Source of the DNA: Clostridia bacterium
GTDB taxonomy: Bacteria > Bacillota > Clostridia > Christensenellales > Aristaeellaceae
Direction: 5' to 3'
Length of the DNA stretch: 64,000 nt
Assembly: GCA_017410455.1 (NCBI GenBank)
Contig: JAFQQT010000017.1
Coordinates: 1-64,000 of the forward strand
Shown: one piece after another, positions 53,087 to 64,000 of the stretch
Layout: each line of letters begins with the position of its first letter
How positions within the stretch are numbered: the stretch's first letter is position 1
Notes under the pieces: model-generated
What the model was told of the DNA's origin: nothing
The model's input: only the letters and a program-made list of their open reading frames with translations
Databases searched by the model: none
Position numbers and translations under genes: made by a program

Positions 53087-53878
53087 TCAATCTGCCCTGG
53101 GCATGAAGTCAGCGGGGTCGATGACCGGCGGACGGCTGCGCTTGTGCATGCCGGCGCGCTCCAGCCGGGCGATGCGGGCGTCGGCGGCTTCGTCGCCGGA
53201 GGAGCCGCGGCGGACATAATCGTGAATCTGCTGGTAGGTGACGCCCAGGCGCTCCTCGTCGGACTTGCCGGAGAGGCCGTCAGAGGGCGTCTTGACCACC
53301 AGATCACGGGGGAGCTCCTCCAGCGTCAGGCCCACCTGCACCACTTCGATGCTGGTCAGCGCGGCCAGGAGCGCAAAGTCGGAGGAGGTGTCGCCGTCCT
53401 TGGTGCAGTAGCCCACGGTGATCTCCGACAGATTGCCGGTACCCACCAGGCGGGCGTCCAGCGCCTGGGCGATGTAGCGCAGGGTGGTCATGCGCAGGCG
53501 GGGGCCGACATTGACGTCGCTTTCCCGGTGGGGGGCGACGGCGAATTCGCCCGGGGCCGCCACGCAGCCCAGCTGATCGGTCAGGCGGCGCAGCTCCCGG
53601 TGCATTTCGCCGATGTTGACGGTGCGGCGCTGGATGCCCAGCACGTCGCACACGCGCTGGCTGTCGGAGATGTCCTTCTGTTCGCCGTCGGGGAGCATCA
53701 CGCCGTAGACATTCTCCCGGCCCAGGGCGCGGGTGCACAGGGCAGCGCAGACGGTGGAGTCCTTGCCGCCGGAAATGCCCAGCACAACGCGGCTGAAGCC
53801 CTGACGGGCGGCCATGTCACGGATTCCGGCAACGAGGGCGTCGCGGGTTTTCACAGCATCAAAACGGTCATTGCTCAT
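53087..53878 (-). CDS. nadE: Ammonia-dependent NAD synthetase
   Basis: A 263-residue NadE, which turns nicotinate adenine dinucleotide into NAD. The PP-loop LGISGGKDSTVCAAL, GTGNLSEITVGYCTKDGD and the KTPSDGLSGKSDEE segment are clear. There is no glutaminase domain, so it uses ammonia. Start at 53878 with GGAGG 5 nt upstream; it overlaps the methyltransferase gene by 11 nt. Confidence 0.95.
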   Translation of the reverse strand: MSNDRFDAVKTRDALVAGIRDMAARQGFSRVVLGISGGKDSTVCAALCTRALGRENVYGVMLPDGEQKDISDSQRVCDVLGIQRRTVNIGEMHRELRRLTDQLGCVAAPGEFAVAPHRESDVNVGPRLRMTTLRYIAQALDARLVGTGNLSEITVGYCTKDGDTSSDFALLAALTSIEVVQVGLTLEELPRDLVVKTPSDGLSGKSDEERLGVTYQQIHDYVRRGSSGDEAADARIARLERAGMHKRSRPPVIDPADFMPRAD

Positions 53879-54713
53879 AAGCGCCTCCATGTTCTTCATT
53901 GTCCAGGGAAATGGCGGGAACGGCGTCCCGGCGGGCAAGAATGAGGGAATAATGGGTGGTGAAGCTGCTGCCCAGGTCGATGCCCAGGGTGTTCTTCGCG
54001 TCGTGGCGGCACCAGGGCAGGATGTAGCGGCTGAGCAGGATGGGGGCGTAGGCACCGTCGGGGTTCAGCAGGGCGGTCAGCTCCTCCATGCCGTAGGAGA
54101 AGTAGTTCTCGCGGCACTCCCGCTCCCAGTTCTCGGTGTACTTGTATTTCAAGATCAGGTGGACAAGGTTTTTCCTGACGCCGATGGAACCCCAGGCGGC
54201 CTCGAAGTCCGCCACCTGCCAGGCGGGCAGCACGCGGCGCAGCTGCTCTGCGGCGGCCTGCGGGGCAGGGGCTGCAGGGTCGGCGGAAGCGTACATCATG
54301 TCGCGCACCACCAGGTATCCTGGCCCGATCTGGCCGATCAGCCGGGTGATGCTCTCCCGGTCGCAGTCGTAATGGAAGATCTCATGCAGGACGGAGGAGA
54401 AGTTGACCGCGATGCGCTTTTTCTCGATGCCCAGGGCGCGGATCTTGTCCAGCAGCTCTGCCTGGTCGCTGAAGAACCAGGCGTTCTCCGGGCAATGCTG
54501 CCGGGCGGCGGCGATCATGGCGGGGTCGATGTCGTAGCCGATGTAGCGGATGCTGGGAAACAGCTCGTGCAGGAAGCGGATCAGCGACCCATCCGCGCAG
54601 CCGAAGTCGATGATCAGCTCCGTCCCCGGCACCTTGTCCATGAAGAAGGCCTTGTCCCACATGGAGCGGCGCATGCGGTCGTTGTAGACCTGGTAGTTGT
54701 CGATGTCGGGCAT
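53868..54713 (-). CDS. SAM-dependent methyltransferase embedded in the NAD operon
   Basis: A 281-residue protein. Motif I is ELIIDFGCADGSLIRFL (about 32-48), followed by YIGYDIDPAMIAAAR with the acidic residue that binds the SAM ribose, and AVNFSSVLHEIFHYD. The C-terminal 100 residues are not recognised. It lies between the nicotinamidase and nadE genes and overlaps nadE by 11 nt, so it is firmly part of the NAD operon. A substrate in NAD or nicotinate metabolism is possible but not shown. Confidence 0.78.
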   Translation of the reverse strand: MPDIDNYQVYNDRMRRSMWDKAFFMDKVPGTELIIDFGCADGSLIRFLHELFPSIRYIGYDIDPAMIAAARQHCPENAWFFSDQAELLDKIRALGIEKKRIAVNFSSVLHEIFHYDCDRESITRLIGQIGPGYLVVRDMMYASADPAAPAPQAAAEQLRRVLPAWQVADFEAAWGSIGVRKNLVHLILKYKYTENWERECRENYFSYGMEELTALLNPDGAYAPILLSRYILPWCRHDAKNTLGIDLGSSFTTHYSLILARRDAVPAISLDNEEHGGAYEQ

Positions 54714-60338: not shown

Positions 60339-61241
60339 ATGAAGCACCTGCTGAAGCTGCTGGATCTGAGCAAGGAGGAAATCATCGACCTGCTGGATCT
60401 GGCGGACAAGCTCAAGGCCGAGAACAAGGCTGGCATCCCGCACCCGATCCTCAAGGGCAAGACCCTGGGCATGATTTTCCAGAAGTCCTCGACCCGCACC
60501 CGCGTCAGCTTTGAAACGGGCATGTACCAGCTGGGCGGTCAGGCGCTGTTCCTGTCCAGCCGCGATCTGCAAATCGGCCGCGGCGAGCCCGTGCAGGACA
60601 CCGCCCGCGTGCTGAGCCGGTATCTGGACGGCATCATGATCCGCACCTTCGCCCAGCAGGAAGTCGAAGACCTGGCGAAATTCGGCTCCATCCCGATCAT
60701 CAACGGCCTGACGGATTTCTGCCATCCCTGCCAGGTGCTGGCGGACCTGCAGACCGTCCGCGAGCACAAGGGCACCCTGGACGTGAACATGTGCTACATC
60801 GGCGACGGCAACAACATGGCCAATTCGCTGATCGTGGGCTTCCTGAAGGTGGGCGCGAAGGTGTCCATCGCCTGCCCGGATGCGTATCAGCCCGATGCGC
60901 AGATCCTGGAGTTTGTCAAGGCCTACCCCGGCCAGTTCTTCATGACCGACAAGCCCCTTGAGGCTGCGAAGGACGCGGACGTCATCTTCACCGACGTGTG
61001 GACCTCCATGGGCCAGGAAGAGGAGCGCATCGCCCGCGAGAAGGCCTTCGCCGGCTATCAGGTCAACGCGGAGCTGATGGCGGTGGCCCATCCCGGCTGC
61101 ATGGTGCAGCACTGCCTGCCCGCCCACCGCGGGGAGGAGATCACCGAGGAGGTCTTCGAGGCTCATGCCGATGAGATTTTCGACGAGGCGGAGAACCGTC
61201 TGCATGCGCAGAAGGCCGTTCTGGTCGCCTGCATGAAGTAA
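60339..61241 (+). CDS. argF: Ornithine carbamoyltransferase
   Basis: A 300-residue enzyme making citrulline from ornithine and carbamoyl phosphate. The carbamoyl-phosphate motif is SSTRTRVSFE (about 50-59), the FCHPCQVLADL motif near 128, and the ornithine-binding MVQHCLPAHRG near 260. AAGGTGGAG lies about 10 nt before ATG 60339; longer frames start upstream without a site. It is followed by carA after 19 bp, so carbamoyl phosphate made next door is probably used for arginine. Confidence 0.96.
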   Translation: MKHLLKLLDLSKEEIIDLLDLADKLKAENKAGIPHPILKGKTLGMIFQKSSTRTRVSFETGMYQLGGQALFLSSRDLQIGRGEPVQDTARVLSRYLDGIMIRTFAQQEVEDLAKFGSIPIINGLTDFCHPCQVLADLQTVREHKGTLDVNMCYIGDGNNMANSLIVGFLKVGAKVSIACPDAYQPDAQILEFVKAYPGQFFMTDKPLEAAKDADVIFTDVWTSMGQEEERIAREKAFAGYQVNAELMAVAHPGCMVQHCLPAHRGEEITEEVFEAHADEIFDEAENRLHAQKAVLVACMK

Positions 61242-61260: not shown

Positions 61261-62364
61261 ATGGAAAAGAAAGGCTACCTCTTGCTGGCGGACGGCCAGC
61301 TCTTCGAGGGTGTGCTGCGCGGCGCGGCGAAGGCTTCCACCGGCGAAGCGGTGTTCCTGACCTCTGTCGTGGGCTACATGGACACGCTGACCGACCCTGC
61401 CTATGCCGGGCAGATCGTGGTGCAGACCTTCCCTCAGATCGGCAACTACGGCGTGGTGCCGGAGGCTGACCTGGCTGTTAAGCCGAGCCTTGCGGGTTAT
61501 GTCTGCCGCGAGCTGTGCGATGCGCCCTGCAACTTCCGCTGCGAGGGCACGCTGGAAAAGTACCTGATCGACAACGGCATCCCCTGCCTGACGGGTGTGG
61601 ATACCCGCGCCATCACCCGCCGCATCCGCGAGAAGGGTGCGATGAACGCCGCCATTCTCACCGAAAAGCCCGCGGATGTGGCCGCTGCTGCCGCTGAGCT
61701 GGCTTCCCTGGTCATCCCGGCGGAAACCGAGACGGGCGTGGAGGACATCGTTCCCGCCGAGAAGCCCGGCAGGTACCATGTCGTCCTGTGGGACATGGGC
61801 GCGAAGGCCGACACCGTGGCCCAGCTGGAAAAGCGCGGCTGCGCGGTGACGATGGTGCCCGCCAACGTGACGGCGGAAGCCATCGCTGCCCTGGAACCTG
61901 ACGGCGTGGTCATCACCAATGGCGCTGGCAACCCCGAGGACTGCCAGGACGTGGCGGACGAAATCGCCCGGCTCCTGAATGATAAGCACCTGCCCGTGAT
62001 GGGCATCGGCCTGGGCCATCAGCTGATCGCCATCAGCCAGGGCGCGGCCATCCGCAAGCTGCCCTATGGTCACCGCGGCGGCAATCAGCCCATTGAGGAT
62101 CTGAAAACCGGCGTGTGCGGCATCACCAGCCAGAACCATGGCTACGAGGTGGATAAGGAAAGTCTGCCGGAAAATGTCTCCCTGCGCTATATCAACCGCA
62201 ACGACGGCTCCTGCGAGGGCATTGATTATCTGGACATGCCCGTGTTCTCCGTGCAGTTCCAGCCCGCCATGACCGGCGGTATCCATAATGGGGTCAAAAT
62301 TGGCACCCACACCCTGTTCGACCGCTTTATTGCGCTGATGGGAGGTAACAAGGAATGCCGCTGA
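61261..62364 (+). CDS. carA: Carbamoyl-phosphate synthase small subunit with dead glutaminase site
   Basis: A 367-residue CarA by length and order (N-terminal domain, then GATase fold with GHRGGNQP and SQNHGYEVD). The glutaminase triad is gone: the nucleophile elbow usually reading GICLGHQ is GIGLGHQ here (Gly250 for Cys), and the usual HPE is QPA (Gln334 for His and Ala336 for Glu). The normal GPGDP segment is also changed to GAGNP. The frame is otherwise intact and its ribosome site is normal. It probably still binds CarB but cannot hydrolyse glutamine, implying ammonia as the nitrogen donor. Overlaps carB by 10 nt. Confidence 0.92.
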   Translation: MEKKGYLLLADGQLFEGVLRGAAKASTGEAVFLTSVVGYMDTLTDPAYAGQIVVQTFPQIGNYGVVPEADLAVKPSLAGYVCRELCDAPCNFRCEGTLEKYLIDNGIPCLTGVDTRAITRRIREKGAMNAAILTEKPADVAAAAAELASLVIPAETETGVEDIVPAEKPGRYHVVLWDMGAKADTVAQLEKRGCAVTMVPANVTAEAIAALEPDGVVITNGAGNPEDCQDVADEIARLLNDKHLPVMGIGLGHQLIAISQGAAIRKLPYGHRGGNQPIEDLKTGVCGITSQNHGYEVDKESLPENVSLRYINRNDGSCEGIDYLDMPVFSVQFQPAMTGGIHNGVKIGTHTLFDRFIALMGGNKECR

Positions 62365-64000
62365 ATCCTTCGCTCAAGAAAGTTATGATCATCGGCTCCG
62401 GCCCCATCGTCATCGGTCAGGCGGCGGAGTTCGACTACGCGGGCTCCCAGGCCTGTAAGGCCCTGAAGGCCGCGGGCCTGGAGGTGGTGCTGGTCAATCC
62501 CAACCCCGCCACCATCATGACCGACCACACTTCCGCCGACCAGATCTACATCGAGCCCCTGACCCTGGAGACCCTGCGCCGCATCATCATCAAGGAAAAG
62601 CCTGACTCCCTGCTGTCCACCCTGGGCGGCCAGAGCGGCCTGACCCTTTCCATGCAGCTGGCCAAGGAGGGCTTCCTGGATCAGCACGGCGTGAAGCTTC
62701 TGGGCGCCAAGTGCGAGACCATTGAGAAGGCCGAGGATCGCCTGCTGTTCAAGCAGACCATGGAATCCATCGGCCAGCCCTGCATCCCCTCCGATGTGGT
62801 GGAGAACCTGCCTGACGCCATCAAGCTGGCCGCGAAGATCGGCTATCCCGTTATCGTGCGCCCGGCCTTCACCATGGGCGGCGAGGGCGGCGGCATCTGC
62901 CAGAACGAGGAGGAGCTGCGCGAGATCGCCGCGAACGGCCTGCGCCTTTCTCCCATCACCCAGGTGCTGATCGAGAAGTGCGTCTCCGGCTGGAAGGAGA
63001 TCGAGTTCGAGGTCATGCGCGACGCCAAGGGCAACGTCATCGCCGTCTGCTCGATGGAGAACATCGACCCCGTGGGCGTGCACACCGGCGACTCCATCGT
63101 CGTGGCCCCTGCGCTGACCCTGTCCAATGACGAGTATCAGATGCTCCGCCGCGCTGCGCTGGACATGGTGTCCGCCCTGGAGGTGGAGGGCGGCTGTAAC
63201 TGCCAGTTTGCGCTCAAGCCTGACAGCTTTGAGTACGCCGTCATCGAGGTCAACCCCCGCGTGAGCCGTTCCTCCGCCCTGGCCTCCAAGGCCACCGGCT
63301 ATCCCATCGCCAAGACCGCCGCGATGATCGCCATCGGCTACACGCTGGACGAAATTCCCAACGCCATGACCGGCAAACCCCTGGCGGGCTTTGAGCCCAC
63401 GGTGGACTACATCGTGGCCAAGGTGCCCAAGTGGCCCTTCGACAAGTTCGTTTACGGCAAGCGCACCCTGGGCACCCAGATGAAGGCGACGGGCGAGGTG
63501 ATGTCCATCGGCGTGAGCGTGGAGCAGGCGCTGATGAAGGCTGTGCGCGGCGCGGAGATCGGCTGCGACACCCTGCGCATGAAGTCCCTGCTGGAGCTGA
63601 CGGACGAGGAGCTGCTCGACCTGATCGGCCGCTGCACCGACCAGCGCATGTATGCCGTTTATGAGGCCATTGCCCGCGGCGTGAGCCTGGAAACGCTGCA
63701 TGACATCACCAGGATCGACTACTACTTCCTGAGCAAGTTCCAGAACCTGTGGAACATGGAAGCCCGCCTGATGCAGGGCAATGTCGATTGCGACCTGTAC
63801 ATGAAAGCCAAGAAGATGGGCTTCCCGGACAAGGTGATCGAGCGCCTGTCCGGCGAGAAGGTGCCCATGCACCGTGACCCCGTCTACAAGATGGTGGACA
63901 CCTGCGCGGGCGAATTCGAGGCCCAGCGCCCCTACTTCTACGCCACCTACGATGAGGAGAACGAGGCTGCGGACTTCCTCGCCAAGCGCGAGAAGAAGCC
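62355..64000 (+). CDS. carB: Carbamoyl-phosphate synthase large subunit (partial, 5' part)
   Basis: The first 548 codons are present; the gene runs off the window. The N-terminal carboxyphosphate ATP-grasp domain is intact: IGSGPIVIGQAAEFDYAGSQ, NPATIMTD, RPAFTMGGEGGG, SGWKEIEFEVMRD, and the metal-binding segment VIEVNPRVSRSSALASKATG. The oligomerization domain begins near 400. ATG 62355 follows GGAGG at 9 nt and overlaps the end of carA. The carbamate-kinase half and the allosteric domain cannot be checked here. Confidence 0.96.
   Translation, partial: MPLNPSLKKVMIIGSGPIVIGQAAEFDYAGSQACKALKAAGLEVVLVNPNPATIMTDHTSADQIYIEPLTLETLRRIIIKEKPDSLLSTLGGQSGLTLSMQLAKEGFLDQHGVKLLGAKCETIEKAEDRLLFKQTMESIGQPCIPSDVVENLPDAIKLAAKIGYPVIVRPAFTMGGEGGGICQNEEELREIAANGLRLSPITQVLIEKCVSGWKEIEFEVMRDAKGNVIAVCSMENIDPVGVHTGDSIVVAPALTLSNDEYQMLRRAALDMVSALEVEGGCNCQFALKPDSFEYAVIEVNPRVSRSSALASKATGYPIAKTAAMIAIGYTLDEIPNAMTGKPLAGFEPTVDYIVAKVPKWPFDKFVYGKRTLGTQMKATGEVMSIGVSVEQALMKAVRGAEIGCDTLRMKSLLELTDEELLDLIGRCTDQRMYAVYEAIARGVSLETLHDITRIDYYFLSKFQNLWNMEARLMQGNVDCDLYMKAKKMGFPDKVIERLSGEKVPMHRDPVYKMVDTCAGEFEAQRPYFYATYDEENEAADFLAKREKK

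Follow-up and report, generated by a model that had tools for sequence, protein, structure and literature searches.

What nitrogen donor serves a carbamoyl-phosphate synthetase (CPS) whose small subunit, CarA, has lost the residues that hydrolyze glutamine? The question is raised by the carA gene in a 64,000-nucleotide stretch of DNA from a Clostridia bacterium (GenBank assembly GCA_017410455.1, contig JAFQQT010000017.1, positions 1 to 64,000), here called the window, whose source genome (G000) is a 92% complete metagenome-assembled genome (MAG) of 3.30 Mb in 93 contigs. Glutamine is described as the physiological donor of Escherichia coli CPS and all bacterial CPSs (PMC6245113), and all CPS types but CPS1 are said to use it (PMC4655335). 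The gene and its relevant sites are listed below, with E. coli residue numbers counted from a phmmer alignment of the window CarA to E. coli CarA (1c30, 1cs0).

61261..62364, + strand: carA, pseudo-glutaminase CPS small subunit, 367 amino acids (NCBIfam, Pfam and predicted fold)
61399..61401, + strand: codon 47, GCC, Ala; E. coli counterpart Ser47
61789..62286, + strand: class I glutamine amidotransferase (GATase) domain of CarA, residues 177-342 (Pfam PF00117)
62008..62010, + strand: codon 250, GGC, Gly; replaces the nucleophile Cys (E. coli Cys269)
62080..62082, + strand: codon 274, GGC, Gly; E. coli Gly293, a tunnel position occupied by Gln318 in CPS1
62260..62262, + strand: codon 334, CAG, Gln; replaces the catalytic His (E. 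coli His353)
62266..62268, + strand: codon 336, GCC, Ala; replaces the catalytic Glu (E. coli Glu355)

A glutaminase domain without its triad

The original prediction that Gly250, Gln334 and Ala336 stand in place of Cys, His and Glu agrees with the codons, the phmmer alignment and the translation, in which the motifs read GIGLGHQ (Gly250) and SVQFQPAM (Gln334, Ala336). Both CarA domains, PF00988 and PF00117, score above the Pfam cut-off, and the protein passes the NCBIfam models TIGR01368 and PRK12838 with 348.7 bits (cut-off 307.35) and 363.3 bits (cut-off 221), respectively; the first of these, entitled glutamine-hydrolyzing CPS small subunit, accepts it despite the missing residues. The fold is retained in the predicted structure, and carB adjoins carA. 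The window CarA thus lacks the Cys-His-Glu triad of a CPS II small subunit and appears, from sequence and model, to share with CPS I a glutaminase domain that is kept but inactive. We consider it probable that CarA is a folded, conserved partner of CarB no longer able to hydrolyze glutamine via Cys-His-Glu, and that CarAB uses bicarbonate, ATP and free ammonia to form carbamoyl phosphate for both ArgF and PyrB; taken jointly, we give these statements a probability of about 0.8.

The change is shared by most of the genus. CarA was matched in 107 of 150 family genomes, of which the loci of the best 30 hits were read, and in 17 of 18 genus genomes (G014 gave no match). At the three sites, 15 of the 17 matched genus genomes have a CarA without Cys and His, and none of these carries an in-frame stop; in every one of them site 250 is Gly and the His site is altered, and G008 alone retains Glu. 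Read in the order Cys, His, Glu, the sites are GQA in nine genomes, GMQ in four, GLQ in G001 and GQE in G008, while G015 and G017 keep the triad. The broken genes encode Gly250 variously by GGC, GGT and GGG, so the residue is old and fixed. Together, the 15 genomes and the synonymous codon variation uphold the earlier view that the change is fixed and not a sequencing error. Its description as three independent losses was too strong: in a tree of 64 of the 120 CarA loci introduced below, the 15 broken genus CarAs, all with Gly250 and a changed His and only one retaining Glu, form one clade (100/99), with G017 just outside (100/97) and then G015 (96/79, not starred).

To place this clade, we read 120 CarA loci (118 distinct sequences) from the genus, from the top-scoring hits in the family and from 79 GTDB contigs, a sample of near relatives that gives no frequency of loss across Clostridia. 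The triad is kept in 103 and broken in 17. The two broken CarAs outside the genus come from a sheep rectum MAG (L147; GNE, with Glu kept) and a water deer colon MAG (L155; GMN), and both loci have complete carA and fused carB frames. A single clade of all 17 broken CarAs was rejected by the approximately unbiased (AU) test (p-AU 2.8e-7), as was a clade of the 15 genus CarAs with L147 (p-AU 2.7e-98); the rejection of a single origin is to be read with the caution that L155 has a long branch and that the tested group was named after the tree was seen. The data support two losses of the triad, and a third is possible; we do not firmly count three because of the long branch of L155 and because L147 and L155 could share an origin. 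Cys is replaced by Gly in all 17, a recurrence that may suit the strained turn at the nucleophile. Site 47 is Ser in all 103 triad-bearing rows and is lost in 16 of the 17 broken ones, with six different replacement residues and L147 as the exception. Close pairs of broken CarAs have ratios of nonsynonymous to synonymous substitution rates (dN/dS) of 0.09-0.18, indicating purifying selection, and CarB identity in the compared pairs is 88-99%. In the broken group CarA evolves faster relative to CarB, and within the protein conservation is lower, and evolution faster, in the GATase half.

Genomic setting and pathway

The genes flanking carA are the following.

60339..61241, + strand: argF, ornithine carbamoyltransferase (NCBIfam, 431.8 and 413.3 bits, above cut-off)
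62355..64000, + strand: carB, CPS large subunit, 5' part; continues to C93:66383 as a DapF-like fusion

As had been proposed, argF lies directly upstream, its end (61241) 19 bases before carA, and the carB start (62355) is intact, as is the rest of the gene past the window end to C93:66383, a frame of 1342 amino acids including the DapF-like domain. The carA and carB genes overlap by 10 bases in separate frames, unlike the small and large parts of CPS I, which form one chain. In 14 genus CarBs, the counterparts of E. coli R129, R169, E215, H243, Q285, E299, N301 and R303, which we take to be site residues, are invariant. Fourteen CarB columns are invariant in the four intact rows with their residue missing from the 13 broken-CarA rows; in one of these, in the glycine-rich loop, S177 is replaced by Glu (Ala in G001; Leu in CPS1). 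That these column changes accompany the loss of the CarA triad is suggestive only. The in-frame fusion of CarB with a DapF-like domain spans 62355-64000 of the window and runs on to G000:C93:66383 (L047:2355-6383). Among 18 aligned fused copies, from the genus, three near relatives, L147 and L155, Ala, Ser, Pro or Gly takes the place of the first catalytic Cys of the fused domain (CGNG). The stand-alone DapF of the source genome keeps both Cys, and the fused DapF of Ruminococcus bicirculans (L118) retains the first.

The enzyme had been thought devoted to arginine, which the genomes do not support. One stretch of the source genome (L240) carries pyrB, pyrI, pyrE, pyrF, pyrD, pyrC and pyrK by NCBIfam, the last, the dihydroorotate dehydrogenase electron transfer subunit, as a best match below cut-off. 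PF02729 has two matches in this genome, ArgF and the PyrB of L240. The pyr genes rule out an arginine-only CPS; because they are present and no other CPS was found in the source genome, the enzyme must feed both the arginine and the pyrimidine pathways. In G001 (94% complete), which has a broken CarA, the single PF02729 match is PyrB, and neither ArgF nor any further transcarbamoylase was found with this family; the CPS of G001 would therefore serve pyrimidines.

Nitrogen donor and rival explanations

With no triad and no other CPS found, the nitrogen most likely comes from free ammonia, and the earlier proposal of a CPS that uses ammonia, in parallel with CPS I, stands as the best reading of the sequences. 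We infer both ammonia as the donor and its arrival at the carboxyphosphate site. Ammonia would perhaps enter through the emptied glutamine pocket and the old tunnel and reach the carboxyphosphate site of CarB, and CarAB, the sole CPS found in the genome, would then feed ArgF and PyrB. In CPS1, the old tunnel is blocked by Gln318 at the position of E. coli Gly293, according to PMC4655335. All 15 broken genus rows have Gly here (Gly274 in the window CarA), and the five intact rows closest to them have Ala; as the position is unblocked, unlike in CPS1, ammonia may be able to enter via the emptied pocket. In eight of the 15 broken CarAs, 5-9 extra residues directly follow the equivalent of Gly359, a residue whose mutation in E. 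coli reportedly creates an escape route for ammonia (PDB 1m6v). The apparently open tunnel position and the inserts are leads, not proof.

Several observations weigh against ammonia as the donor. Part of the glutamine pocket, the motifs GHQ and QNHG with Gln254, Asn292, His293 and Gly294, is still invariant. PurL and HisH triads are kept, so glutamine is still used in the cell. E. coli CPS requires very high ammonia (PMC6245113), and the broken CPS would therefore need a higher affinity for it. The search for a second carA that had been suggested gave a single CarA hit in the source genome and no further copy, but the genome is 92% complete and another small subunit may have escaped detection. 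Finally, a further CarA, with the triad, lies on contig C103 of G016, for which 7% contamination is given. Unfused CarB, full-length GuaA and CTP synthase are encoded there too (L018, L174, L203), and the contig is probably foreign to that MAG.

The second CarA of G016, and the fact that all genomes are of MAG type, might suggest that the triad loss is an artefact of assembly, binning or sequencing, an idea we regard as practically dismissed: 15 genomes with graded site states and synonymous codon changes at site 250 rule it out. It is improbable that nascent ammonia comes from a different protein, a glutaminase or an amidotransferase subunit that binds CarB either alongside the dead CarA or instead of it. 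PurL and HisH do show cellular glutamine use, and the genome encodes a class I GATase-like protein of 237 amino acids (C24, L046), but this protein reads, in our view, like a gamma-glutamyl-GABA hydrolase, PF00117 matched only it, CarA and HisH, no second CarA was found, and CarA itself is kept and holds the role of CarB partner.

The faster evolution of CarA relative to CarB in the broken group could instead mean that the CPS is being lost, the CarA site decaying as the need for carbamoyl phosphate falls, with arginine and pyrimidines taken from the gut; loss does occur in the family, 43 of 150 genomes having no CarA match. Yet none of the 15 broken CarAs contains a stop, the low dN/dS of close pairs and the CarB identity noted above point to constraint, and argF and the pyr genes are retained, and we consider decay unlikely. 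The invariant pocket motifs would also fit a CarA that binds glutamine or another metabolite without cutting it and, as a sensor, gates an ammonia-using CarB; with the GATase half the less conserved and Ser47, constant in the triad-bearing loci, given up for six different residues, we find this very improbable. An ammonia-fed CarAB with a dead but folded CarA is the reading we retain.

The nearest parallel would be human mitochondrial CPS1, which is ammonia-specific, as the Clostridia enzyme probably is from its sequence. The latter differs in having separate subunits and a separate origin, in combining Cys to Gly with the loss of His, Glu and Ser47, in having Gly at the tunnel position where CPS1 has the blocking Gln318, and in standing by arginine and pyrimidine genes with no urea cycle setting. 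Frog CPS1, also ammonia-specific and a member of this superfamily, still has all three triad residues and owes its block to a different residue (PMC4655335), whereas in the Clostridia CarA the triad is gone. E. coli CarAB has glutamine as its physiological donor (PMC6245113), and in comparison with its C269S mutant (1c30) the dead site of the Clostridia CarA is a natural state, fixed throughout a clade. The source genome also encodes a GATase-less GMP synthetase and a short NAD synthase; these synthetases have no glutaminase domain at all, whereas CarA retains its domain in a dead form. Judged by titles and the opening lines of abstracts, we found no report of a natural bacterial CarA without the triad in the open literature, with most subscription journals uncovered.

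Other glutamine-using enzymes and significance

Further nucleotide enzymes differ between the groups. In a survey of GuaA with PF00958 over 27 genomes, full-length GuaA (GICYGMQ, FHPE) was found in G015, G017, G025, G049, G042, G112, G089 and on contig C103 of G016, and in none of the 15 broken-CarA genomes outside that contig. Twelve of the 15 have a GATase-less GuaA, mostly in frames of 331-366 amino acids; in G002, G006 and G010, PF00958 matched only a longer and divergent paralogue, and weakly, a minority of such hits being read. One divergent GuaA-like protein of the source genome (L079:1474-2955, minus strand; G000:C77) has 494 amino acids and an N-terminal part without a Pfam GATase match, and frames of similar length gave weak hits in many relatives. 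CTP synthase (PF06418) was not found in 13 of the 15 broken-CarA genomes, including the source genome, though this has genes for uridine monophosphate (UMP) synthesis; the other two are G001 and, on contig C103, G016. CTP synthases with Gly for the nucleophile Cys occur in G001 (L204), G049 (L206) and G015 (L207). Where canonical copies read ICLGMQ, that of G001, the only CTP synthase found there, and these second copies in G015 and G049 have IGYGMQ or IGFGMQ, with HPE kept. The genomes of L147 and L155, whose completeness is unstated, gave no GuaA or CTP synthase match.

In PurF, a motif that we take to be the glutamine-binding site is altered, with Cys1 kept, in all four broken-CarA genomes read (L249-L252, in this order: RYAPKD in G000, RYAAAD in G009, LYGSIG in G013 and LYGTKE in G001); the three intact-CarA genomes read have RYATTG (G015), RYGTTG (G017) and RYGTMG (G025). 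PF13522 gave a single match, PurF, in each of G000, G001 and G013. Triads are kept in PurL of G000 and G013 and in HisH of G000, which excludes a wholesale loss of glutamine use. The genomes in which GlmS was read are G009, G015 and G017. The NAD synthase of the window (53087-53950, minus strand) has no glutaminase domain in its frame and is of the ammonia type.

A tentative reading, to which we give somewhat less than an even chance, is that the genus has shifted much of its de novo nucleotide synthesis, enzyme by enzyme, from glutamine to free ammonia: the CarA triad lost, the PurF site changed with Cys1 kept, full-length GuaA replaced by a GATase-less form and CTP synthase lost or kept as a paralogue with Gly for Cys, with PurL and HisH retaining glutamine. 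Two genomes with intact CarA speak against such a linked switch, G150, with no CTP synthase and only a short-type GuaA, and G019 (79% complete), with no full-length GuaA. As they show, the GuaA and CTP synthase losses are not strictly tied to CarA, which, with the changes in the genus amounting to roughly one event, somewhat lowers the odds.

A sole detected CPS without a glutaminase site would break the rule that bacterial CPSs take their nitrogen from glutamine, and the Clostridia clade would provide a two-subunit counterpart of human CPS1. The graded series CHE, GQE, GLQ, GMQ and GQA offers a route to how ammonia affinity and tunnel entry evolve. As the 'glutamine-hydrolyzing' family model passes the triad-less CarA above its cut-off, annotation will mislead. 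The linked switch, if true, would be a natural series of cells giving up glutamine channelling.
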